Assembly (NCBI GenBank): GCA_951828515.1
Contig: OX639992.1
Span: forward strand, 1,540,439-1,604,438
Length of the DNA stretch: 64,000 nucleotides
Origin: an uncultured Poribacteria bacterium
GTDB lineage: Bacteria; Poribacteria; WGA-4E; WGA-3G
Direction: 5' to 3'
Below, piece by piece: positions 5,267 to 50,414 of the stretch (position 1 is the stretch's first letter; every line of letters begins with the position of its first letter). Position numbers and translations under genes: made by a program. The notes below the pieces were generated by a model. It was not told the origin of the DNA, ran no database searches, and was given only the letters and a program-made list of their open reading frames with translations.

Positions 5267-7570
5267 TTACGTACCATGCCCATTGCTCTTCAATGCTTCA
5301 ACAACCTTCTCAGGCTTAATTGGCAATTCGGTAACCCGCACACCAATAGCATCTTTGACAGCGTTTGCCATCGTTGCCAATGTTGGCGTGATAGGGGGTT
5401 CACCAACACCTTTGGCACCATAGGGACCGTTGGGTGCAGGCACTTCAACAATGACAGATTCGACCGTTGGGAGATCCGCTGAGGTTGGGACGCGGTAATC
5501 GACAAAGCCCGGATTGATGTTACCGTTTTCGCCGTACTGCATCTCTTCCATCATTGCCCAGGCATACCCTTGCACTGTGCCACCTTCGATTTGTCCTTCA
5601 ACAGCCATCGGGTTGATGGCGTAGCCGACATCTTGCGAAGCGACAAGTTTGAGGACCCTTGTTCTGCCGGTGTCCGGATCTACTTCAACCTTCGCGATCT
5701 GCGCCGCGAGTGCCGGTGTGCTTGCTTGTCGGGCAAAGGAACCTTTTCCAACGATAGGTCCACCGGTTGTGGACAAACTATACGCCGCAAGTTCACCTAA
5801 CGAAATGGATTTCGGCGGGTCTGCGGAAACAACATGGACAGCCCCATCTTTGAGTTCAAGGTTATCCACATTCGTATTGAGTCGTTCTGAGGCAAGTTCA
5901 AGAATCCGTCGGTGAGCGTCTTCCGCCGCCAATTTTGCGGTGTTGCCCATTGTGAAGGTGACAACACTTCCACCTGAACCGGTAGAATACGGTGCGGAAT
6001 CTGTATCACCGCGCCGAATTGTAACGCTTTCATACGGTATCGTCAAGATTTCGGCGGTGATTTGTGAAATCATAGTATCCGTTCCAGTGATGTCCATAGA
6101 CCCGTGGAAGATACGGGCACTACCGTCTTCATGGACAGAAACATAAACACCACCGGGTCCACAGCCGTTCGTCCAATCACCAACAGCAACACCCCACCCT
6201 TGGTTCTCGCCAGCTTCCCGATCCCACCATCCAGCGGCATCTGCGACGGCTTCCAAAGTCTCTTTGTAGCCCACTTTGGGTTCGTTTGCCCCTGCGGGGA
6301 CAGGATCGCCTTCCTCGCGCATGTTCATCAGACGGAATTTAACGGGATCCATGCCGATGCGCTCAGCAATTTCGTCGAGTTGGGATTCACCTGCGAAAAT
6401 GGCTTGCGGGGCACCGGGTGCCCTATAGGCAGCGGTACCAGATTTGTTGGTGTGAACGCCGTAAGCGTCTACCTTGAGATTCGGAATTTTATAGACCCCA
6501 CGGACTCGAATCGTGCTACCGATCGATGCCCCAGAGACGGAACCGGAATCCCAAAAAGCGAGTGCTTCCCGCGCAAGGATCTGTCCGTCGTTTGTAGCAC
6601 CTGTCTTGATTTTAATAACACATCCGGGTGCCGGTCTACCATCAATGAATTCCTCTTCACGCGTCATCTGGACACGGACCGGACGCCCTGTTTTCTGCGA
6701 AAGCAACACGGCTGGAACGTGCGTAATGATGACACCAAAACGACCCCCAAAACCACCGCCCATCGTTGTGCCGATGACGTTAATTTGTGTCAACGGAATA
6801 CCGAGAGTCCCAGCAATACCGGAACGGATAGCGAACGGACCTTGCGTGGATGCCCAGACCGTGACTTTACCCGATGAATCCGCACTCGCAACAGAGACGT
6901 GTGGTTCCATGTAGGTTTGGTGGACACGCGGAATCACATACGTATCTTCAACGACGACATCAGATTCGGCGAAACCTTTCTCAACATCACCTGCTTCAGA
7001 GTGGCTTTCGGCAGAGATGTTATAGTAAACTTCATCAGGATATTCCTCTAATGCCGCCTCAAGTTTGCTGATTTCGTCGCTGTGGTCGTTCTCCTTATCA
7101 CGAGTGAGTTTCCGGATCTGTGCGCTGATTTCCCGTCGATTGGGACCGTCCTTTGCTGCGTCACTTTGCAAGCGCGGTGCCGACACCTTAATCGCTTCCA
7201 TCACATCTTGCACAACCGGTAACACTTCGTATTCAATCTTAATGAGTTCAGCGGCTTCCTCGGCGATATCCGGATCGGTTGCGGCAACAGCGGCAAGCGG
7301 TTCTCCCAAGTAAAGGACTTTATCAGTCGCGAAGACTCTTCTTCCACTTGGCACGTCGTCTTGCGTAATGATCGCTCTGACACCGGGAAGTTTTTCGGCT
7401 TCGCTGGTGTCAATACTGAGTATGTTGGCGTGAGCATGTTTACTGCGGACGATCTTGCCATAGAGCATACCGGCAGGGTGGACATCTGCACCGTATTGGG
7501 CGGCACCGGTCACTTTCTCGACGGCATCAACCCGTGCGACCGTTTGTCCGACAACAGTATATTCTGACAT
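5267..7570 (-). CDS. Molybdenum hydroxylase large subunit (xanthine dehydrogenase family)
   Basis: A 767-residue molybdopterin-binding subunit of the xanthine dehydrogenase/aldehyde oxidase family. Landmarks in order: the a/b hammerhead domain (GAAQYGADVHPAGMLYGKI), the cofactor loops GGGFGGRFG and AYRAPGAPQA, RGDTDSAPYSTGSGGS, and near the C terminus KGVGEPPITPT with the catalytic Glu. It would hydroxylate an aromatic heterocycle or aldehyde with water as oxygen donor. A charged insertion of about 45 residues around 160-205 (RKLTRDKENDHSDEISKLEA) is unusual. It is the last gene of a four-gene operon with the zinc-ribbon, 2Fe-2S and FAD genes. The substrate cannot be read from sequence. Confidence 0.92.
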   Translation of the reverse strand: MSEYTVVGQTVARVDAVEKVTGAAQYGADVHPAGMLYGKIVRSKHAHANILSIDTSEAEKLPGVRAIITQDDVPSGRRVFATDKVLYLGEPLAAVAATDPDIAEEAAELIKIEYEVLPVVQDVMEAIKVSAPRLQSDAAKDGPNRREISAQIRKLTRDKENDHSDEISKLEAALEEYPDEVYYNISAESHSEAGDVEKGFAESDVVVEDTYVIPRVHQTYMEPHVSVASADSSGKVTVWASTQGPFAIRSGIAGTLGIPLTQINVIGTTMGGGFGGRFGVIITHVPAVLLSQKTGRPVRVQMTREEEFIDGRPAPGCVIKIKTGATNDGQILAREALAFWDSGSVSGASIGSTIRVRGVYKIPNLKVDAYGVHTNKSGTAAYRAPGAPQAIFAGESQLDEIAERIGMDPVKFRLMNMREEGDPVPAGANEPKVGYKETLEAVADAAGWWDREAGENQGWGVAVGDWTNGCGPGGVYVSVHEDGSARIFHGSMDITGTDTMISQITAEILTIPYESVTIRRGDTDSAPYSTGSGGSVVTFTMGNTAKLAAEDAHRRILELASERLNTNVDNLELKDGAVHVVSADPPKSISLGELAAYSLSTTGGPIVGKGSFARQASTPALAAQIAKVEVDPDTGRTRVLKLVASQDVGYAINPMAVEGQIEGGTVQGYAWAMMEEMQYGENGNINPGFVDYRVPTSADLPTVESVIVEVPAPNGPYGAKGVGEPPITPTLATMANAVKDAIGVRVTELPIKPEKVVEALKSNGHGT

Positions 7571-33308: not shown

Positions 33309-35006
33309 CTACTGTTGTCCCAGCACTTTCAGAAACTCTGGATCCTCCTTTACGTCCGAAAATTCGGGGGTTTTGAGGAAAGTCGGGTAGTAGGTATCTT
33401 GATTATAGGGAGTTACCACGTAGGAGTCCTGAGCGACTTTTAAATGATGTAAAGTCTTCTCTCGATCCTGCTCAGAAGCCCAGATACTCACAGCAAGTTG
33501 GAAGTGCCCGTAATGGTTGTTATCTTCCAAATCAATGGTGATCTGTAGGAACCGTTTCGCCTCGTCATACTTCTTCAACCACAACAGACAGCAACCGAAA
33601 TCATGCGTAAACCACATAAGGTGGTCAAGATTTACAGGTTGACCCGCATCCCGTTTCTTCAACTCTCCTTCCAGATACGCATTCACTTCCGTAAAGACTT
33701 GATCAAAACGATCCCAATCTTCCTGTTTACCGTACACGAGAAGCCGATTTTCTTTCGCAGTCAACCAGAATTGAAAATAATGCTCTGAACCGGGTTCGTT
33801 GTTAGCACGTTCCAATTTTTCTATTTCAAGGAGTGCTTCATTGAACCTGCCGTTGCCTCGTAAGACATCTGCTCCGGTTTGCAGAAAATCGCAACGACTG
33901 TAGTAACTCACTTCAGGGTTTTCCAAGCGTTCAGTGGCTTCCTTATAAAGTTGAATCCAGTCATCAATACGATCTTCCGCCGCCCAACATGCAGCAGTAC
34001 TCAGATTGGCAATAACCTTCAACACATACTTTCCTGACTGCTTGCATGCCCAACGGTAAAGTCGGGTCTGTTCTTCGATAACTTCTTGATTTCTTTCAAG
34101 AAAAGCGAGACTATCGACTAACTCATCATGCGCCCAGAAACGCTCTGTATCATCTGGTGCGTCATCCATATACTTACGGAGTAGAGATAGCCGTTTTTCC
34201 ATGCCGAGTTTGCCCATGTATAGGTATATATCATCGACAGCAAGATGTACCACTTCGGGTGTGATTTCATCCTTAAGTGCATCTTCAATCTCGTTGCAGG
34301 CTTCTGTAAGAATATCGTCTCTTGAGGTAGGGTCAGATTTCACTTGTTCCATGAATGCATCGAACGTGCTGCGAAGTTGTTCTAATTGATTCATAATATT
34401 CTCCTTCAGATTATCTGATAATTGTAGATGACCAAAGAATTCTTGATTCAAGAGTTCTTGATCTGCTTGCAGACGCTTTCGCGCGCGTTGGAGTCGGCTC
34501 GTAATTGTATTCACGGACACTCCCATGAATGTGCCGATCTCTTTCGTTGACATTTCGTCAAGATAGAAGAGCGTTACAACTGCGCGTTCATTCTCCGGCA
34601 GTTTTTCCAAAAGTCTTTTCACAAGTTCATGGTGATGCTCGGTTCTCTCTGTCATTCGTTGTTCAGACACATGATATGCATAAGAAGACTTATCAATTTC
34701 TGCTGCAGGTGTGTCCTCCAGCGATTGCATCACAGACTTTTGGCTTCGCATCCAATCGATGCAAAGCCGATTGGCGATGACATGGAGCCACCCAGAAAAT
34801 TGATTGGGATTCTTGAGTGTCGGAAGTTTTTTGTATGCCCTCAGGAAGGTGTCCTGCATAATCTCTTCCGCATAGTGAAAATCTTGGATCTTTCGCCATG
34901 CCAACGCATGAACGCTCTTTTGGTACTTTTCGACCAAGATGCTAAACGCCGCGTCGTCGCCCGACAAAATCTTGCGAATGAGTTGAACATCGTTTTCTCT
35001 TTCCAC
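33309..35006 (-). CDS. ECF sigma factor fused to a TPR-like domain, copy A
   Basis: A 565-residue protein starting at GTG (35004-35006) behind AGGAGGGAGTTTC. Residues about 10-90 are sigma region 2 (FHYAEEIMQDTFLRAYKKLP, QFSGWLHVIANRLCIDWMR) and about 125-180 are region 4 (MSTKEIGTFMGVSVNTITSR). From residue 205 (MNQLEQLRSTFDAFMEQVKS) a separate helical domain of 361 residues begins, with TPR-like repeats (FNEALLEIEKLERAN, YDEAKRFLQITIDLEDNNHY, REKTLHHLKVAQDSYV). The second domain could sense a signal or act as a built-in anti-sigma. An ABC-2 permease lies upstream and a MacB-like permease downstream. Confidence 0.85.
   Translation of the reverse strand: MERENDVQLIRKILSGDDAAFSILVEKYQKSVHALAWRKIQDFHYAEEIMQDTFLRAYKKLPTLKNPNQFSGWLHVIANRLCIDWMRSQKSVMQSLEDTPAAEIDKSSYAYHVSEQRMTERTEHHHELVKRLLEKLPENERAVVTLFYLDEMSTKEIGTFMGVSVNTITSRLQRARKRLQADQELLNQEFFGHLQLSDNLKENIMNQLEQLRSTFDAFMEQVKSDPTSRDDILTEACNEIEDALKDEITPEVVHLAVDDIYLYMGKLGMEKRLSLLRKYMDDAPDDTERFWAHDELVDSLAFLERNQEVIEEQTRLYRWACKQSGKYVLKVIANLSTAACWAAEDRIDDWIQLYKEATERLENPEVSYYSRCDFLQTGADVLRGNGRFNEALLEIEKLERANNEPGSEHYFQFWLTAKENRLLVYGKQEDWDRFDQVFTEVNAYLEGELKKRDAGQPVNLDHLMWFTHDFGCCLLWLKKYDEAKRFLQITIDLEDNNHYGHFQLAVSIWASEQDREKTLHHLKVAQDSYVVTPYNQDTYYPTFLKTPEFSDVKEDPEFLKVLGQQ
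34392..34406 (-). promoter_or_regulatory. Internal ribosome site and start in sigma-TPR A
   Basis: AAGGAG (34401-34406 on the minus strand), six bases, then an in-frame ATG (34392-34394) at the exact border between the sigma and TPR parts. A free 361-residue C-terminal protein could be translated from here. Confidence 0.6.
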
Positions 35007-35336
35007 GAAACTCCCTCCTAATGAACAAACTGAGTTGTGTTTGCCTTTGCCAAACGACTTAATCAAATGCTGAGTTTTGTAAAATTAAGCAATACGGTCA
35101 GATTCAGACGCTTTATTATTAAGGACGAAAGTTTAATCAAAAAACGTGCATCCTGTTGAAAAAATGTTGAAATAATTGTAAATTTTATTATCAGTTGGGG
35201 GCGATCGATGGATGGAACAGAGAAAAGGACAGCACAAATACTTTTCTGGCGAGCATTTCTGTCGTGCAGTGTCCGAAGAAAAGAACACAAGGGAACGCTT
35301 GGCTCTTTGCAATATGGGGAACTTGAAAACTACACG

Positions 35337-38602: not shown

Positions 38603-40321
38603 CTACTTCTGTCCCAGAACCTTCAGAAATTCTGAATCCTCCTTTACATCCGCAAATTCAGGGGTTTTAAGGAAAGACGAGTAGTAGCCATCCAGATAAT
38701 TGTAGGAAGTAACCACATACTCGTCCTGAGCGACCTTCAAATGGTGTAAAGTTTTTTCTCGATCTCTCTCAGATGCCCAGATGCTCACAGCAAGCATGAA
38801 GTGATTATAATCGTTGTAATTTCCCAAATCGATGGCGAGTTGTAGCAAACGTTTCCCCTCGTTATACTTCTTCGCCCATACCAGACAACAACCGACATTG
38901 TGAGCAGCACAGACAAGCTCGTAGATATTTACGGGATAACGAGTATTCCGTTTTTCTACTTCCCCTTCGATAAACGTCCTTGCATCCGTCCAGACTTGAT
39001 CGAAACGATCCCAATCTTCCTGTTTGCTATACACCCGAAGTCGATTCTCTCTTACAGCCAACCAGAACCTAAAATAACTCCGCCACCCGGGTTCGCCATT
39101 GGCACGTTCCAACTTCTCTATTTCAAGAAGTGCCGCATCTAACCTATCGTCTTTTAGTAAGATATCCGCTCCGAATTGTAGAAAATCGCAACGACTGTAC
39201 TGACTCACTTCAGGGTCCTCTAAACGTTCAGAGACCTCATTATAAAGTTGAAACCAGTCATCAATACGACCTTCTGCCGCCCAACATCCAGCAGTGTTTG
39301 GATTGGAAATAATCCGCAACACATATTTTTCTGACTGCTTGCCTGCCCAACGGTAAAGGCGCGTCTGTTCCTCAATCGCTTCTCGATTTCTCCGAAGCCG
39401 GGCGAGGCTATTCACTAACGACTTATGCGACCAGTAACGTTCTGTATCATCTGGCGCGTTATCCATATACTTACGGAGCAGAGGCACCCGTTTTTCCATG
39501 CCGAGACTGCCCATATACGGGTATATATCATCAACCACAAGATGCACCAACTCGGGTGTAATTTCACCCTTAAGCGCATCTTCAATCTTGTTGGATGCCT
39601 CCTTAAGAATATCCGCTCTTGATGCCGGATCAGATTTTACTTGTTCTATGAATGCATCGAACGTGCTGCGCAGTCGCTCCAATTGATTCATAATATTCTC
39701 CTTCAGATTATCTGATAATTGTGAATGACCAAAGAATTCTTGAGTCAAGAGTTCCTGATCTGTTTGTAAACGTTTTCGTGCTCGGTGGAGCCGACTCGCA
39801 ATTGTGTTCACCGGCACCCCTAAGTATTTGCCGATCTCTTTTGTTGACATTTCGTCAAGATAGTAGAGTGTTACGACCCTTCGTTCATTTTCTGGCAGTT
39901 TTTCCAAAAGCCTTTGGACAAGCACATGGTGATACTCGGTTCTCTCTGTCACCCGCTGTTCCAACACGTGCTGTGTGTAAGAGGATTCCTCAACTTCTTC
40001 CACAGGCGTGTTCTCAAGCGATTGCATGGCAGGCTTTCGCTGCTGTATCAACTTTTGCTTTCGCATCCAATCAATGCAAAGCCGATTTGCGATGACATAG
40101 AGCCACCCAGCAAATTGATCGGGATTTTTGAGGGTCGAGAGTTTTTTATATGCCTGAAGGAAGGCATCTTGGGTAATATCCTCAGCATCGTGATAATCGC
40201 CGATCTTCCGCCATATAAGGTCATGAACGCTCTTTTGGTACTTTTCGACCAAAATGCCGAACGCCGCGTCGTCTCCCGATAAAACTTTGCGAATCAGTTG
40301 AACATCGTCTTCTCTTTCCAC
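38603..40321 (-). CDS. ECF sigma factor fused to a TPR-like domain, copy B
   Basis: A 572-residue paralogue of the protein at 33309-35006, starting at GTG (40319-40321) behind GAGGAAATTTC. Sigma region 2 (DYHDAEDITQDAFLQAYKKL, FAGWLYVIANRLCIDWMRK) and region 4 (MSTKEIGKYLGVPVNTIASR) are intact. The C-terminal domain starts with MNQLERLRSTFDAFIEQVKS at residue 211 and has the same helical repeats. The upstream 150 bases also match those of copy A (GCCTT-GCCAAA, AATCAAATGC, AATTAAGCAATA), which points to a shared promoter type. The upstream gene encodes a STAS protein. Confidence 0.85.
   Translation of the reverse strand: MEREDDVQLIRKVLSGDDAAFGILVEKYQKSVHDLIWRKIGDYHDAEDITQDAFLQAYKKLSTLKNPDQFAGWLYVIANRLCIDWMRKQKLIQQRKPAMQSLENTPVEEVEESSYTQHVLEQRVTERTEYHHVLVQRLLEKLPENERRVVTLYYLDEMSTKEIGKYLGVPVNTIASRLHRARKRLQTDQELLTQEFFGHSQLSDNLKENIMNQLERLRSTFDAFIEQVKSDPASRADILKEASNKIEDALKGEITPELVHLVVDDIYPYMGSLGMEKRVPLLRKYMDNAPDDTERYWSHKSLVNSLARLRRNREAIEEQTRLYRWAGKQSEKYVLRIISNPNTAGCWAAEGRIDDWFQLYNEVSERLEDPEVSQYSRCDFLQFGADILLKDDRLDAALLEIEKLERANGEPGWRSYFRFWLAVRENRLRVYSKQEDWDRFDQVWTDARTFIEGEVEKRNTRYPVNIYELVCAAHNVGCCLVWAKKYNEGKRLLQLAIDLGNYNDYNHFMLAVSIWASERDREKTLHHLKVAQDEYVVTSYNYLDGYYSSFLKTPEFADVKEDSEFLKVLGQK
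39689..39703 (-). promoter_or_regulatory. Internal ribosome site and start in sigma-TPR B
   Basis: AAGGAG (39698-39703), six bases and an in-frame ATG (39689-39691) at the border of the sigma and TPR parts, the same arrangement as copy A. Confidence 0.6.
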
Positions 40322-44025: not shown

Positions 44026-45246
44026 TTAATTTCGCAGGATATTGGAGTGAAATTCCGAGATGCTTTCTTCAACACTTCGGAGCAGCATCTCATCGCTGAG
44101 ATGGAACGCCTCGCGTATTGTGATAGGCAATTTCTGTTTCGCCTCTATGGAATCAAGCAATCCTTGATTTTGCACGACAACGACAGCGTCAATACTCTCT
44201 CGAAGTTCCTGTAGCCCACGTTCTGCTTGTTCGGCGCGGCGTTGACCTTCAAAATTGAATGGACACGTCACAACACCCACAACCGAAGCGCCCTGTTCTT
44301 GAGCGAGAGAAGCAATTAGAGGTGCCGCACCTGTCCCTGTTCCACCGCCCATTCCAGCAATGACAAAAATAAGATCTGCATCCGCAACGATGGTGTAGAG
44401 CGTTTCTCTATCTCCCTCAGCGGCTCTTCTACCGACTTCTGAATTCGCGCCAGAAAATCCTGGCGTGGTGTTAGCACCGATCTGTACGGGTGTTGCTTCA
44501 CGGTGTTTGTCGAGTGCTTGTTGGTCTATATTCACGGCATAAAATTCGACCTCTGTTAAACCGGCTTCAATCATCCATCTGACGGCATTGCCGCCTGCTC
44601 CACCGACACCAATAACTTTGATTTTCGGTTGGATGTGTTTGGATTCTTCCTGTTTGGATAACATAGTTCCCCTTCTTTCAGGCTCGACACCGAACGCCTG
44701 ACGCAGGAGTTCACGTGTCTGTCTTAATTTGGTCTTGATTGTGCCTATCGCTAATCCGAGTTCAGCGTGGATATCCTTAATGTTCCACAATTCCAGATAG
44801 TACAGTACCGCAACGCGGCGCACGCTATCTGGAAGATGATGCACTGCTTCTCTGATGTCCTCACAGAGTTCTGCTTCACGAAAACGTGCGACGGCACTCC
44901 GATCAATGTGATCGATTAGATCCGCATAACTGGAAGGAATTTCATTCCCGGAACGCCTGGCAGAAGCGTAGTACCTTTTGCAAGCGTTATAAGCAATGCG
45001 ATGTAGCCATCCACCGAAACTCTCAACACTTCGCAGCCCGCTGATATTCTCCCAGACGGCTCTCCAGACATCCATGCGGATTTCCTCAGCGTCGCGGCGT
45101 TGCCTCGAATTTGCGGTAATCACTTTCCAAATGCGTGGACTATAACGCGACATCAATTCCTCAAATGCCAATTCATCACTGGCTTGTGTAAGCCCAATGA
45201 GCTCTTTATCTGTCAGATTGGTGTGCGTTGATAGATCGTATCGCAT
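44026..45246 (-). CDS. ECF sigma factor fused to the FtsZ GTPase domain
   Basis: A 406-residue protein. Residues about 20-95 are sigma region 2 (ASDELAFEELMSRYSPRIW, FGGWLHRIAYNACKRYYASA), and about 130-185 region 4 (VRRVAVLYYLELWNIKDIHA, AIGTIKTKLRQTRELL). From residue 195 the sequence is the N-terminal half of FtsZ: KIKVIGVGGAGGNAV (T1, 216-220), FYAVNIDQQAL, the tubulin signature GGGTGTG at 300-306, VTCPFNFEGQRRAEQAERGL and VVVQNQGLLDSIE. It ends within helix H7 before the T7 loop, so the catalytic Asp for GTP hydrolysis by the next subunit is missing. GTP binding is likely; polymer turnover is not. No standalone ftsZ is seen nearby. Confidence 0.88.
   Translation of the reverse strand: MRYDLSTHTNLTDKELIGLTQASDELAFEELMSRYSPRIWKVITANSRQRRDAEEIRMDVWRAVWENISGLRSVESFGGWLHRIAYNACKRYYASARRSGNEIPSSYADLIDHIDRSAVARFREAELCEDIREAVHHLPDSVRRVAVLYYLELWNIKDIHAELGLAIGTIKTKLRQTRELLRQAFGVEPERRGTMLSKQEESKHIQPKIKVIGVGGAGGNAVRWMIEAGLTEVEFYAVNIDQQALDKHREATPVQIGANTTPGFSGANSEVGRRAAEGDRETLYTIVADADLIFVIAGMGGGTGTGAAPLIASLAQEQGASVVGVVTCPFNFEGQRRAEQAERGLQELRESIDAVVVVQNQGLLDSIEAKQKLPITIREAFHLSDEMLLRSVEESISEFHSNILRN
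44662..44674 (-). promoter_or_regulatory. Internal ribosome site and start in sigma-FtsZ
   Basis: AAGGGG (44669-44674), four bases and an in-frame ATG (44662-44664, residue 195, MLSKQEESK) between the sigma and FtsZ parts. A free FtsZ-like GTPase domain could be translated. Confidence 0.5.
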
Positions 45247-45272
45247 AAACAGTTCCCAATTAGATTTTAACT

Positions 45273-45389
45273 TATAGTAAAACCCATAATTAAGTTTACA
45301 CTCTGTAATGCGGCGAGGTTAGGAAACCTCGCCAGCAATGTGGGTTTTGTGTTTTCAAGAGCGTGCAAGTATTTTCGGGCTTTACTATA
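45273..45389. mobile_element. 117-bp MITE
   Basis: Perfect TIRs and the first-subtype core (CTCTGTAATGCGGCGAGG). It lies 26 bases upstream of the sigma-FtsZ start, so it replaces any native promoter there. Confidence 0.9.
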
Positions 45390-45465
45390 AAGAGTAGGCT
45401 TCTTCGGGAGGCGGTTTAAAAAAAGCAAAAACCACCTGATTTTTCACCGCGCCTCTCACGGTAGT

Positions 45466-46917
45466 TTATACCTCCGAACGTAGGAAAACGAGGAATGCCC
45501 CTGAAAGAAACACACCGAGCAATAAAACGAGTAACAACATATCCACTACTGCGGGGCTGAGCGTGTCCTGAAAGGTTATCTTATCCTCAAATATCGGGAT
45601 AGCCTCCGGTAAGACAGGCTTTTTCGACATGCCTTTCGGGACCCCGATGACGTGAAGACTCTCCGGATCGCTCCGATCCATTTCAACGATGAAGTTTCGG
45701 AACAGTCGGATATGAAGGCGGCAGTGTTCTAAGAATTGCAAGTGGCGATTGAAGCCTGTGCCTGCCATGGATTCAAGCGCGTATTGGACAATCGCCGCAG
45801 GCGAACACCGATTTATCCATCTTGCGTGCAGGACTTGAGCACTTTGTACCGAGAGATGCTGGCGACTCAGCCGCTCACGAATCTCCATGTCTTTACTAAC
45901 GAACTCCCGCTGTATCTCCAATTCCGAAGGGTCCACCCCTGCAACTTCCCGCTGCGGGGTTTCTGCTGATTGACGGCGTTCCCTTAAAGTTTCCCATTTA
46001 TTCACGAAATCACTCCTAATTTGGTCGAAGGCAGTGTCTTTTGCCGTCTGAAATTGATGGTGTGTTTGAACCGGAGACATCCATTTCGTCGAGAGTGTAC
46101 CGAGAGTTGATGGCATAAACACCACGACTGTCACCCAGATAAGCAACAGGATAACGAGACTTAATCGGCTTTCTCGGGTCATTGCGGAGACGGTCAGCCC
46201 AATTGCAACGAAGAGCCCTGCGTAGCAAGAAGCGATGAGGACAATGAACACCAATCTGCCCCAGTCTGCTCCGCCGAGTTGCGTCCAACTCTCGGTAGAA
46301 ATGATGGCAAGATTGAATAACACTGCACAATAGAAGGCGATGAGGACTGTGATGAGGGAGCCAAGAAATTTACCCACCAACAGAGCGGGGCGCGAAATCG
46401 AATTCGCGAGACACAGCCGCAGCGTCCCGCGTTCTCGTTCCCCTGAGAGCGCGTCAAAGGTAAACAGGAGCGGAATGAAGGAGAGCAGATAGGTAACAAT
46501 AAAGACCCAATCAACTACCATGGAGGTGGGACGAAGATTACCGATCGCCTCCATATTTAGACGTGGAACGCCCATCGACCAAATATAGGCAAGCCCGTAG
46601 AGCCGCCAGAAACCACCACTCACGCTTTCGTCTGGTAGCAATGCGTCTCCGCCATCGGCAATGAAAGCGAGAGATGAGGGACGTTTGTAAAGTTTACCAG
46701 GTCCCTTTTGCAGCAGCGTATACAACTGCGTTCTGGACTTCAACTCGGTCTGAGACGCGTTAACCTTCTCGGAATACTTCCGAACCCGTTCCGGATGGGT
46801 CCGAAGATGAACAACAGCATTGGTTACCATTAATGCGACGAGAATGAACGTGGTTAAGCCAAAGCGGAGACTCGTGAGATGGTCTAAAAGTTCACGTGTA
46901 ACAATATGCCAAATCAT
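45466..46917 (-). CDS. ABC-2 type permease (DUF3526-like) 2
   Basis: A 483-residue membrane protein. VTRELLDHLTSLRFGLTTFILVAL at the N terminus parallels the other two permeases. Helices follow around ERGTLRLCLANSISRPALLV (the coupling segment), a soluble insert (QREVAGVDPSELEIQREFVS), and a last membrane helix. The frame can open at a TTG at 46944, but the ATG at 46915-46917 is preferred although its ribosome site is poor. Neighbours are permease 3 upstream and the sigma-FtsZ gene downstream. Confidence 0.82.
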   Translation of the reverse strand: MIWHIVTRELLDHLTSLRFGLTTFILVALMVTNAVVHLRTHPERVRKYSEKVNASQTELKSRTQLYTLLQKGPGKLYKRPSSLAFIADGGDALLPDESVSGGFWRLYGLAYIWSMGVPRLNMEAIGNLRPTSMVVDWVFIVTYLLSFIPLLFTFDALSGERERGTLRLCLANSISRPALLVGKFLGSLITVLIAFYCAVLFNLAIISTESWTQLGGADWGRLVFIVLIASCYAGLFVAIGLTVSAMTRESRLSLVILLLIWVTVVVFMPSTLGTLSTKWMSPVQTHHQFQTAKDTAFDQIRSDFVNKWETLRERRQSAETPQREVAGVDPSELEIQREFVSKDMEIRERLSRQHLSVQSAQVLHARWINRCSPAAIVQYALESMAGTGFNRHLQFLEHCRLHIRLFRNFIVEMDRSDPESLHVIGVPKGMSKKPVLPEAIPIFEDKITFQDTLSPAVVDMLLLVLLLGVFLSGAFLVFLRSEV

Positions 46918-47089
46918 TTTTTTTGGGCTTTCAGTTGTTAGCAATCAGCAATCAGCCAAGAGCGGTTGTGCCATATTAGTAAGGGCAGTCGGTAATCAGC
47001 AGTCCGTGGTAGTAAGCACATGATCAACCACCACATCTGTTTCTTAACTGATCGCTGAAAGCGCAGCGCCCTGACTGCTGACCGCCATT
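46918..47089. repeat. Degenerate GCAATCAGC-type repeats
   Basis: The gap between permeases 2 and 3 consists of several imperfect copies of the GCAATCAGCAATCAGCC / CTGACTGCTGACCGCC sequence, a repeat seen in other intergenic regions (7690-7770, 18010-18180, 22725-22760). No gene. Confidence 0.5.
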
Positions 47090-48655
47090 CTATACTTCAA
47101 CTTTAATAAAAATCAAAACCGTCGCCATGAATAGGATGATATTAAGGCATAACAGCAAAAACAGTTCAGGCAGGGCGCGCTTCGCGTTGATGCCAATTTC
47201 CGCTCGCTCAAAGTCAAAGCGAGGTAAAATCGACCAATCTACATCCCCTTGATTCGGCGCAAACCACTGCAGGCTCGCGAAGGCCTCTCTCTCATGAAAG
47301 GTATTAATGAGGGTGCGCCGGTACGCCTGCGCGGCTCGGATATAATCCACCATGCTGTCTAAATCGGTGCCTGCCCATGCGGCGGTAGCAAACGTGTAGA
47401 GGCTCGCAGGACTGAACTTCATGAGACGTTCATCCACTTGTGCTTGCCGGAGCGATGTCCGCGCCACCAGTTGCTGGCCGACGAAACCGACCTTTTCGGC
47501 ACTCCGGATTTGCAGCGGCGCGGCGAAGGCATAATAACGGCGGAAGTGTAATGCCAAAGGGTCAGCTGCGTCTTTCAATTCAAGGTTAACCCGAGGGAAG
47601 TCCCCGAGGAAGAAATATCCGGCTCCACTAAAGAGCGTTGAAAGCCCTTCAGAACCTGAAAATATCGGAGGTTCTCCCTTAAGCGTACTATTGGCTAAGA
47701 ACCGATCCCGTTCTCGATCTGCTTCTTCCCGAATCTGTGCTATCTGCCGGTCAGCGGATCTTTTTTCTGCCCGCATGTCGCCCATTGAATTCAGGGCAAA
47801 CCGACTCCAGTTTGGATAGACGAGCACCAAGATCACCCATAGAAACATGCAGAGCATCAGGGATGTGGCGGCACGACGGGTGATTGTGGAAACGAGCAAA
47901 CCGATCAGATAGAAAACCGATAGGTAGACAATTGTCGTCAAAACAATGCCACCAATTCGTAGAAAATCATCTGTACTGAATTGCAGGGAACGCGCAAAGG
48001 AACACTGAATTAGTGCAAGCAGCAAACTCATCAACACGGGGAGTAGCAGGCACACCATCGCCGCAATATACTTGGCAAGCAGGACACTTCCGCGTCCGAC
48101 AGGGTGTGAGAGCACCAAACGCAAGGTACCGGTTTCCCAATCTCCCGCAATCGCATCATAAGCGAAAAGCAGGGACAGGAGACTCAACACAACTTGAAAG
48201 ATAAAGACAAGATCTATCTGTGAAAAGAGATACAGATACGGGTTATTTATACCGAGGGGTGCCCCGGGACTTGAGAGAGACGGGACGCTCCCAAACGCCC
48301 ACTGTTCTTCTTCCGGTCTGACATCAACGATGGGGTTTGAGAGGGCTGGCACACTGTCAAACGCTATGTCAATCTCACTACCAAAACGCGTCTCTAAGCC
48401 CGCACTAAAGAGACTCAAGGGATTGGGCGGACGCTGAACTTTTAACCGCAAGATCGAATAGGTGGCGGTCGACGCGACTTTCTCACGATTCACGGCTTCT
48501 TTCTGACTATAGTCGGCGAGACGCTCTTCATGCACACCGATCAAAACAAACGTATTGGCAACAACAAGTAAGAGTGTAATGACGACCGCGGCAAAAAAAC
48601 GCGCACTCATCAGATGAATCAAAAGTTCTTGGCGTATCAACGTCCGTAACATCAT
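47090..48655 (-). CDS. ABC-2 type permease (DUF3526-like) 3, coupled to sigma-clamp
   Basis: A 521-residue membrane protein beginning MMLRTLIRQELLIHLMSARF and FAAVVITLLLVVANTFVLIG. Two periplasmic stretches and a six-helix ABC-2 core follow, with WETGTLRLVLSHPVGRGSVL as coupling segment. The ATG lies one base past the TGA of the sigma-clamp gene, with GGAG inside the clamp C terminus as ribosome site, so the two genes are translationally coupled. The frame upstream (to 48772) lies within the clamp gene and is not used. No ATPase gene is present. Confidence 0.85.
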   Translation of the reverse strand: MMLRTLIRQELLIHLMSARFFAAVVITLLLVVANTFVLIGVHEERLADYSQKEAVNREKVASTATYSILRLKVQRPPNPLSLFSAGLETRFGSEIDIAFDSVPALSNPIVDVRPEEEQWAFGSVPSLSSPGAPLGINNPYLYLFSQIDLVFIFQVVLSLLSLLFAYDAIAGDWETGTLRLVLSHPVGRGSVLLAKYIAAMVCLLLPVLMSLLLALIQCSFARSLQFSTDDFLRIGGIVLTTIVYLSVFYLIGLLVSTITRRAATSLMLCMFLWVILVLVYPNWSRFALNSMGDMRAEKRSADRQIAQIREEADRERDRFLANSTLKGEPPIFSGSEGLSTLFSGAGYFFLGDFPRVNLELKDAADPLALHFRRYYAFAAPLQIRSAEKVGFVGQQLVARTSLRQAQVDERLMKFSPASLYTFATAAWAGTDLDSMVDYIRAAQAYRRTLINTFHEREAFASLQWFAPNQGDVDWSILPRFDFERAEIGINAKRALPELFLLLCLNIILFMATVLIFIKVEV

Positions 48656-48656
48656 T

Positions 48657-50369
48657 TCACGACTCCAAGCGCATTGGCATGATGAAACAGATATGTCCAT
48701 CCTCACCAATCGGTTTAACAATGACAGGATCCAGTGCACTCGAAAACTCCAGTGCCAGAGATTCCGCTTCAATATGTGAGAGTGTCTCTATCAGCAGTTG
48801 AGCATTTATACCGATACGGATACTTCCAGTACTGGATTCCACTGCTAAGGTCTCATGCGTCTCATCCGGTTCAGGGGCTTCCGGTGAGACCCGAATCTGT
48901 TGTTCATCTATCTCTAAACAGACCTTAAAGGTCTTCGGATCTGATACCAATGAAACCTTACGCATCGCATGCAAAATAGGCTCTTTCCGCACAACTGTCC
49001 GTACCTCAGGAGACGCTGAAATGAGTCCCTCATATTTTGGATATTCAGCGTCTACCAATTGAGTCGTCAAGGTTGCGCGCGCATCCGCAAAGAAAATCTG
49101 GTTCGCAACGCGTGAAATCCTCACCTCTGAGGAATCGGCGAAGGTTCGTCCAATTTCTTTGACGGCTTTGAGCGGGACGATAAATCCATCGCTATCCTCA
49201 GATAACTTAAGGGGTTCACAATGTGTGAGTGCAAGTTGGACTGCATTGGTTGCAACGACTTCAGTTCTGTCCTCAAAAAGGTTAAAATAGAGTCCGTTTA
49301 GGAATCGACGCTTTTTCTCTGTGGACGCAGCAAATTCAGTTTTATAGAGGACAGACCGCAGAGTTTCTCCATCAATTGTGAATGCTTCCGGATCAACGGA
49401 GGGAAATTGTGGGAACTCTTTATCGGGGAACCCAACGATTTTGCGAACGCTACCTCCAGAAGTGATTTCAACCTGATTGTCTGTTATCGTTGCCAAGCCT
49501 ATCGGGTTTTCAGCGGGCCATGCTTTAGCGATAGCCTCCAATTCTTTGGCGGAAACAACGATTGTTCCCTCCTCCTTGATAGTCCCTTCAACCTTTATTC
49601 TGACACCGATTTCCATATCCGTCGCCATACACTCGATCGTGCTCCCCTCGGCGTGGATGAGAACATTTGAGAGAATCGGTGAGGTATCCCGCTCACTCGC
49701 GACACTCTGCAGTACCTGTAGGGAGTACAAAAACCCCTCTCTTTCTAAAGTTAATTTCATTCCAAAACCTCCGTCCAGATGTTCTTCTTCAATTGGAATA
49801 TCTAACGTCTCTTGAACCATGAATCCATACTTCTTTAACTGTTGCCGTGCCCGACGGAGACGACTTTTAATCGTATTTTCTGACACACCTAAAAAGTTAC
49901 TTATTTCTGCGTAAGTCATGCCTTCAAGGTAATGAAGCGTGATGACTGTCCGATTGCCTTCCTTCAACCTCGCAAGTAACTTTTCCACCAAGTCACGTCT
50001 CGCTTCGTCTAAAGTTTTCGCGCGTTCCATCGCGACATACCGAGAATACGCCTCTGTCTCTACTTCAGAGATGTCCGTGTCTTCCAGCGGTTCGGTGTGT
50101 CGCTGGTTTTTTCGGAGCCAAGCGATACAGAGACGATTCGCAATGACATAAAGCCAACTTGGAAATCGCGCTGGATCCTCCAAAGTTTCCAATTTCTGAT
50201 AGACCTGTAGGAAGGTTTCCTGCGTAATATCTTCGGCGATATGAAAATCCCCAATTTTCCGCCACGCAAGCGTGTGTACCTGTTTTTGGTACTTTCTAAC
50301 CAAATGCTCAAAGGCGATTGCGTCACCCGTAAGGATGCGTTGAATCAATACAATATCATCGTTTCTCAC
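48657..50369 (-). CDS. ECF sigma factor fused to a full DNA polymerase III beta clamp
   Basis: A 570-residue protein starting at GTG behind GGAGATGTTTG (a TTG one codon earlier is possible). Residues about 10-95 are sigma region 2 (FHIAEDITQETFLQVYQKLE, FPSWLYVIANRLCIAWLRK), and about 135-185 region 4 (MTYAEISNFLGVSENTIKSR). From residue 204 (MKLTLEREGFLYSLQVLQSV) to the end it is a complete three-domain DnaN: SPILSNVLIHAEGSTIECMA, TIVVSAKELEAIAKAWP, DKEFPQFP, and the C-terminal IMPMRL that ends typical DnaN proteins. The clamp encircles DNA and binds polymerases. A covalent link to a sigma factor is unusual; it could tether initiation to DNA-loaded clamps. The permease gene follows after one base. 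Confidence 0.9.
   Translation of the reverse strand: MRNDDIVLIQRILTGDAIAFEHLVRKYQKQVHTLAWRKIGDFHIAEDITQETFLQVYQKLETLEDPARFPSWLYVIANRLCIAWLRKNQRHTEPLEDTDISEVETEAYSRYVAMERAKTLDEARRDLVEKLLARLKEGNRTVITLHYLEGMTYAEISNFLGVSENTIKSRLRRARQQLKKYGFMVQETLDIPIEEEHLDGGFGMKLTLEREGFLYSLQVLQSVASERDTSPILSNVLIHAEGSTIECMATDMEIGVRIKVEGTIKEEGTIVVSAKELEAIAKAWPAENPIGLATITDNQVEITSGGSVRKIVGFPDKEFPQFPSVDPEAFTIDGETLRSVLYKTEFAASTEKKRRFLNGLYFNLFEDRTEVVATNAVQLALTHCEPLKLSEDSDGFIVPLKAVKEIGRTFADSSEVRISRVANQIFFADARATLTTQLVDAEYPKYEGLISASPEVRTVVRKEPILHAMRKVSLVSDPKTFKVCLEIDEQQIRVSPEAPEPDETHETLAVESSTGSIRIGINAQLLIETLSHIEAESLALEFSSALDPVIVKPIGEDGHICFIMPMRLES
49758..49772 (-). promoter_or_regulatory. Internal ribosome site and start in sigma-clamp
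   Basis: GGAGGT (49767-49772), six bases and an in-frame ATG (49758-49760). The ATG is the natural first codon of DnaN (MKLTLEREG). A free 367-residue clamp could be made from this site. Confidence 0.65.
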
Positions 50370-50414
50370 CAAACATCTCCAAAAAAGTCATTTTATTAAG
50401 GGAACTTATACAAC

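Follow-up and report, generated by a model that had tools for sequence, protein, structure and literature searches.

The gene at positions 44026..45246 of the 64,000-nucleotide stretch analysed here (the window) encodes an ECF sigma factor joined to the GTP-binding half of FtsZ, and this fusion is real and conserved over dozens of species of sponge-associated Poribacteria. Its architecture belongs to a known class, the ECF sigma factors with a C-terminal module, and is apparently undescribed: a first-pass annotation of the sequence knew of no precedent, which stands, because no description of a sigma-FtsZ fusion was found in the open-access literature searched. We tentatively read the protein as an autoregulated ECF sigma factor whose C-terminal interaction or sensor module derives from the organism's own FtsZ, and give this reading a little less than an even chance.

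An ECF sigma factor that ends in half of FtsZ

The reading frame lies on the minus strand (the first-pass annotation had named no strand), starts with ATG, has 0 internal stops and encodes 406 aa, divided as follows.

44026..45246, minus strand: sigma-FtsZ(NTD) fusion gene, 406 aa (ORF, Pfam, alignment, AlphaFold2)
44677..45246, minus strand: ECF sigma-factor half, residues 1-190, sigma2 and sigma4 (Pfam, PDB sequences, AlphaFold2)
44029..44628, minus strand: FtsZ GTP-binding N-terminal domain to the end of H7, residues 207-406 (Pfam, alignment, structure search)

The first-pass annotation had placed an ECF sigma factor at residues 1-190, and the domain searches agree with it. Sigma70_r2 lies at residues 31-98 above its Pfam cutoff (E 3e-8), Sigma70_r4_2 at residues 129-180 reaches 24.9 bits, just below its cutoff of 25.7, the NCBIfam model TIGR02937 scores the fusion protein at 64 bits against a cutoff of 42.9, and the sigma half matches the PDB sequences of SigE and SigW; the protein thus has both the sigma2 and the sigma4 domain of the ECF family. 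The second half had been described as FtsZ through the GGGTGTG signature to helix H7, and this was confirmed as well: the Pfam FtsZ/tubulin GTPase domain is found at 208-367 (E 5e-41, 141 bits versus a cutoff of 33), the signature is present, and residues 206-406 of the model superpose on FtsZ N-terminal domains of the PDB with Z about 31, with an rmsd of 1.4-1.8 Å for the best B. subtilis FtsZ chains. The AlphaFold2 model, built from a 29-sequence alignment (mean pLDDT 75), has two ordered domains, an all-helical sigma factor and a Rossmann domain of FtsZ-like fold with H7 at 377-405, joined by a disordered linker at 187-205; the arrangement of the two domains relative to each other is not firm at its pTM of 0.50.

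Over the N-terminal domain the FtsZ half and the genome's own FtsZ share 65% identity, and alignment of the two places the truncation right before the T7 loop. The fusion protein ends in SISEFHSNILRN*, where the genome's own FtsZ runs on as SISDIVTESGEINVDFAD and enters the T7 loop GEINVDFAD. The T7 loop with its catalytic Asp is absent, as had been noticed from the sequence, and the frame stops before it in 30/30 aligned orthologues; the C-terminal domain (PF12327) and the tail are missing too, and PF12327 is present in a longer paralogue. Against the FtsZ equivalog model TIGR00065 the fusion scores 214 bits (cutoff 295).

Distribution and origin

A search with the fusion protein in 85 genomes of the phylum (Candidatus Poribacteria) found the truncated sigma-FtsZ at 46 loci in 44/85 genomes (36/38 of the same genus and 8/18 of a sister genus) and a longer fusion in about 44 genomes, 29 of which have frames of >1,300 aa that include DnaE, as counted from the search table. 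Within this search neither form was present in two genomes that represent a third genus of the family, nor in the other families (26 genomes). Full-length matches came solely from Poribacteria MAGs in a pattern-based scan of 84,980 species genomes, which was not exhaustive outside the phylum. One genome (G003) carries two tandem truncated copies (locus L146, 7015-8305 and 11117-12452).

An assembly or deletion artefact is ruled out: besides the window copy, 29 orthologues taken from other assemblies, several on contigs of chromosome scale, could be aligned along their full length and have the same end, which makes the truncation point identical in 30/30 orthologues aligned residue by residue. 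Relatives carry this same truncated fusion rather than separate sigma and full ftsZ genes, and they also carry the longer paralogue with a full FtsZ fused; the pattern that the first-pass annotation had named as a refutation is not seen.

The genome is 5.85 Mb on one contig and contains three FtsZ-domain genes. An ordinary ftsZ (L005:9484-10752) follows ftsA within a division/murein cluster, which rules out the fusion as the genome's sole FtsZ, and the other two are the truncated sigma-FtsZ and a sigma-FtsZ-DnaE gene; ordinary dnaE and dnaN are also present.

L004 5967-10067 (G000:C1 about 2919966-2924066): sigma factor, complete FtsZ and DnaE cut after the finger domain, one frame, 1366 residues

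In a tree of FtsZ domains the truncated fused forms are monophyletic (100%), as are the long fused forms (99%); the two groups are sisters (97%), and together they adjoin the canonical FtsZ of the same family (99%). Some of the rows come from two collections and may be the same genome. The sister grouping suggests that the clade's own ftsZ was duplicated once, probably with one later truncation.

Constraint on both halves and the nucleotide pocket

As judged from substitution rates in about 295 pairs of sigma-FtsZ orthologues, both halves are under purifying selection, with a median dN/dS of 0.15 for the sigma factor, 0.39 for the linker and 0.18 for the FtsZ half. The fused FtsZ half evolves faster than the canonical FtsZ N-terminal domain of the genus, which has a dN/dS of 0.04. 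Gene-fusion debris, meaning a non-functional product of a recent chance fusion or deletion, would fit the abundance of such fusions in the clade and the repeated loss of DnaE from the longer one, but the same truncation in all aligned orthologues, their monophyly with 100% support, a dN/dS far below 1 and the conservation of the promoter and of the ribosome-binding site at the junction (see below) leave it next to no chance, and as stated it is refuted by the conservation data.

The GTP-contacting residues, whose loss the first-pass annotation had named as a refutation of the finding, are mostly kept. With residues assigned by motif in B. subtilis-type numbering, N25, the GGTG of the signature, E139, N166 and D187 are kept in 45/45 aligned half-FtsZ sequences, F183 in 43/45 and R143 in 38/45; the signature's T109 is replaced by Ala in 32/45, and the T3-loop residues are variable. 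Columns invariant in canonical FtsZ are retained at 0.86 in the nucleotide-face loops of half-FtsZ versus 0.74 elsewhere, and at 0.79 versus 0.75 in the long form. Read from these alignments, the nucleotide face of half-FtsZ is not fully FtsZ-like; the retention of pocket residues nevertheless makes GTP binding likely, and hydrolysis in the usual way would be impossible because T7 is missing. The Ala at position 109, the variable T3 loop and the faster evolution of the FtsZ half all count against the docking or sensor reading set out below.

These residues bear on whether the FtsZ half could act as an autonomous GTP switch that binds GTP or GDP and alters sigma activity within the molecule, with no part for canonical FtsZ. 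The largely conserved contacts to base and phosphate would suit such a switch, as would H7, which changes conformation in FtsZ and is intact in the AlphaFold2 model. We regard it as improbable, since a switch whose T7 hydrolysis residue is gone would be unable to reset itself, the high cellular GTP concentration and tight binding by FtsZ would make a poor sensor, and the linker is long and flexible.

A promoter in common

45386..45424, minus strand: ECF-type promoter TTTTTTTAAACC-N18-CTCTTTATA, intergenic, before the sigma-FtsZ gene (29/29 loci)

The sigma-FtsZ gene is preceded by a bipartite promoter of ECF type with fixed spacing, TTTTTTAAACC-N18-CTCTTT, in 29/29 loci with enough upstream sequence, and in the window about 140 bases that include an inverted repeat lie between it and the ATG. 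The same promoter stands, as an exact match, before the long fusion at 31/35 loci; it stands before sigma-WD40 and related genes at 14/21, and it also precedes a sigma-DnaN gene with a swapped module at locus L170. The core pattern has 4 matches in the 5.85 Mb genome (control count 2). Two of the four precede sigma-FtsZ and sigma-FtsZ-DnaE, and a third, a relic, lies next to an ABC permease at a site with a TnpB-like insertion; the match at C1:1871099 was set aside as probable chance, its nearest downstream gene being about 650 bases off. The predicted targets in the own genome are solely the fusion genes themselves. We infer that the sigma factor recognises TTTTTTAAACC-N18-CTCTTT and would activate its own gene and that of sigma-FtsZ-DnaE; auto- and cross-activation by the sigma subfamily is the simplest reading of the same promoter before sigma-FtsZ and its paralogues.

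The relic copy (L183, about 6976-7005; G000:C1:3746475-3746504) follows an ABC-2 permease that shares 43% identity with the window's, and the TnpB-like gene stands where the fusion gene would be; from this context the orphan promoter marks a relic locus. The inverted repeat between promoter and start codon, GGCGAGGTTTCCTAACCTCGCC (window 45250-45385), is missing in most relatives, a similar sequence occurs upstream in L071, and it is possibly a small mobile repeat.

A predicted second translation start at the junction

44668..44676, minus strand: Shine-Dalgarno-like AGAAGGGGA inside the ORF, matching the 3' end of the genome's 16S, CACCTCCTTT
44662..44664, minus strand: internal ATG (Met195), predicted second translation start (30/30 orthologues)

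The ATG of Met195 is kept without exception in 30/30 orthologues, and just 5' of it each carries a strong Shine-Dalgarno sequence. The energy of its duplex with the 16S tail is -6.2 kcal/mol or better in every one of the 30; of the other in-frame ATGs, 8% reach -4 kcal/mol or better. The residues encoded at this site vary (RGRTM, EGVRIM, NIRGNM, IGGTM). A junction Shine-Dalgarno at -4 or better is also found in 20/20 long fusions and in 8/8 sigma-DnaN genes, and the long-fusion junction AAG AGG GGA ACA ACT ATG uses AGG, which makes up 6% of Arg codons. By eye, sigma-WD40 genes (L095-L113) have a Shine-Dalgarno and an in-frame ATG at the sigma/WD40 junction. Because the ATG and the Shine-Dalgarno are kept while the codons change, free half-FtsZ is probably also made from the internal start; and because the reading frame is never broken at the junction in the aligned fusions, the fusion appears to be kept along with the internal start. 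The junction start hints at a simple way in which such fusions may arise and persist while supplying the free domain.

A free half-FtsZ raises the reading, also contained in the first-pass annotation, that FtsZ filaments are the target. The sigma factor would then be mainly a positive-feedback switch, and half-FtsZ, fused and free, would be a division-inhibitor payload that caps or poisons FtsZ filaments once the loop fires and halts division in the way of MciZ or SulA. Lacking T7 and the C-terminal domain, half-FtsZ would be unable to propagate polymerisation, the internal start is conserved, self-activation is predicted, and apart from the gene itself the sole intact gene behind a good promoter match is sigma-FtsZ-DnaE, all of which suit a payload. 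We still think it unlikely, as the fused form is kept in every orthologue although fusion would be needless for a pure payload, the full FtsZ of the sister paralogue mostly keeps its T7 loop intact, and paralogues carry at the same place WD40 modules, which are not division inhibitors.

Exchangeable modules and the neighbourhood

In the sigma tree one subfamily comprises the truncated fusions, the long fusions, the sigma-WD40 proteins and one sigma-DnaN (L170), and the best reading is an ECF sigma family with exchangeable C-terminal modules: FtsZ, FtsZ-DnaE, DnaN and WD40, the last being of a protein-interaction kind. The sigma factor of the L170 gene (1980-3743) nests within the long sigma-FtsZ group, and the protein keeps a remnant of the FtsZ start, VAHGKEISEPSRDKIK (versus MAHQKEVSKPARDKTK), ahead of DnaN, which means that a clamp took the place of an FtsZ module. 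The DnaE part of sigma-FtsZ-DnaE has the PHP domain, the polymerase core and the fingers and is missing its C-terminal part; several relatives have lost DnaE shortly after the junction, where remnants such as SEFIH* or SEFVHLHNHSEYSLLV* are left. Some longer fusions have lost the FtsZ T7 Asp or the DnaE DxD motif, which favours a binding role over catalysis for the longer forms.

The window holds further sigma fusions and the conserved neighbours of the gene.

48657..50372, minus strand: ECF sigma factor of another subfamily with a complete DnaN sliding clamp (Pfam, junction analysis)
38603..40321, minus strand: ECF sigma factor with a 380-aa helical C-terminal module (comparison with sigma-DnaN)
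45466..46944, minus strand: ABC-2 permease, conserved upstream neighbour (Pfam, locus comparison)
47090..48772, minus strand: ABC-2 permease, conserved upstream neighbour (Pfam, locus comparison)

The window's sigma-DnaN has all three clamp domains (Pfam) and an internal start at the junction (GGAG-8-ATG), with orthologues in most genomes of the genus; its sigma subfamily is that of the sigma factors with a helical C-terminal module. The sigma part of the 38603..40321 protein is about 51-52% identical to that of sigma-DnaN, and its 380-aa helical module looks TPR-like and has no Pfam match. The ECF sigma factors at 33309-35066 and 38603-40321 (both minus strand) are 73% identical, each with a 380-residue helical module that Pfam does not match and a sigma part about 51% identical to that of sigma-DnaN. 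These neighbouring 572- and 585-aa proteins are not hidden sigma-clamp fusions, their C-terminal parts matching each other and not DnaN. In many relatives the same-strand neighbours are, in varying order, the ABC-2 permeases, sigma-DnaN, a DUF5916/CBM9 protein and the helical-module sigma factor. Two further FtsZ-like proteins were seen: L144 1428-2861 (minus strand), from a genus (g5) of another family, is a full-length FtsZ with a 180-residue N-terminal extension that by eye resembles a ribbon-helix-helix DNA-binding domain (no Pfam match) and is perhaps an independent DNA-binding-FtsZ fusion, and a 735-residue minus-strand frame in L145 (2500-4707 on the reverse complement) has a distant FtsZ/tubulin-like domain followed by an HD-GYP-looking domain.

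In a further reading the FtsZ, DnaN and DnaE modules would be decoys, copies of host proteins under attack by phage or competitor proteins, and binding by an attacker would release or activate the sigma factor and start a response. The three modules come from essential machines of the kind that phages target, and in another system an immune protein has been shown to respond to FtsZ combined with a phage protein (PMC13423816); module swapping, the loss of catalytic residues in several copies and evolution faster than in the parent protein point the same way. A decoy seems to us improbable, given that the FtsZ fusions had no defence match in PADLOC and that their surroundings showed no recognised defence genes, that WD40 modules do not fit, and that the predicted regulon in the own genome is the fusion genes alone. 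A broader statement, that self-activating sigma factors with FtsZ, FtsZ-DnaE and DnaN modules couple transcription directly to the state of, or attack on, the divisome and replisome while releasing the free module from an internal start, is possible, and we hold it with more doubt than confidence.

Proposed mechanism and comparison with known systems

The first interpretation was right on the domains, the truncation point and the absence of precedent, and it had overlooked the set of exchangeable modules, the conserved internal start codon and the self-type promoter; the GTP-sensing sigma factor and the FtsZ cap that it offered stay hypotheses. ECF factors with C-terminal modules (ECF41, ECF42/TPR, ECF56/SnoaL, ECF57/WD40) are regulated through these modules (PMC8999054), and for this reason we read the FtsZ half as a docking or sensor module of an autoregulated sigma factor. 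Half-FtsZ keeps the nucleotide face and has lost the T7 face, so it could be solely the nucleotide-side partner of a full FtsZ, and the T7 face of canonical FtsZ would be its natural partner. The proposed docking site is the T7 face where canonical FtsZ leaves it exposed, at one filament end or on monomers, and docking would either hold the sigma factor off RNA polymerase or bring it there, and transcription would thereby follow the assembly state of FtsZ or the division state. Half-FtsZ made separately from the internal start would be a competitor for these T7-face sites and would set a threshold. That the predicted targets are the fusion genes alone counts against such a switch.

Ties of gene expression to division or replication in bacteria are mostly known via indirect regulators, and a sigma factor joined to half-FtsZ, with sisters joined to FtsZ-DnaE and to a clamp, would be a direct physical link. 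What sets the architecture apart is that the cell's own machinery for division and replication serves as the modules, combined with internal starts and a common promoter. The fused half-FtsZ would also be a natural single-faced FtsZ, of use for probing the capping of filament ends.

MciZ and SulA are division inhibitors that bind the end of FtsZ (PDB 4u39, 1ofu). Half-FtsZ could in principle cover the T7 face of FtsZ in a like manner, but those proteins are unrelated to it, and here a piece of FtsZ itself is joined to the sigma factor. The fusion resembles FtsZ (TIGR00065, PF00091 plus PF12327) in its fold, GTP-pocket residues and identity to the genome's own N-terminal domain, and differs in lacking the T7 loop, C-terminal domain and C-terminal tail. 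In phage T4, the sigma factor gp55 works with the sliding clamp gp45 (PMC2988020, PMC7892883), a pairing of a sigma-type specificity factor with a replication clamp that parallels sigma-DnaN; unlike in sigma-DnaN, gp55 and gp45 are separate proteins, and FtsZ has no part in the T4 pair. The cas8/cas11 gene has an internal in-frame start (PMC11899642), and similarly one sigma-FtsZ frame is predicted to yield a long protein and its C-terminal part, with the differences that the frame here is a sigma-module fusion and that the second product is predicted from sequence. There is also a likeness to ECF41, ECF42, ECF56 and ECF57, reviewed in an article that mentions neither FtsZ nor Poribacteria (PMC8999054): sigma-FtsZ has the same architecture of sigma2 and sigma4, a putative C-terminal control module, no obvious adjacent anti-sigma gene and a self-type promoter, and its sigma subfamily and promoter are those of the sigma-WD40 paralogues. 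Unlike in those groups, half of FtsZ (in sister genes FtsZ-DnaE or DnaN) serves as the module, and the junction carries a conserved internal start.
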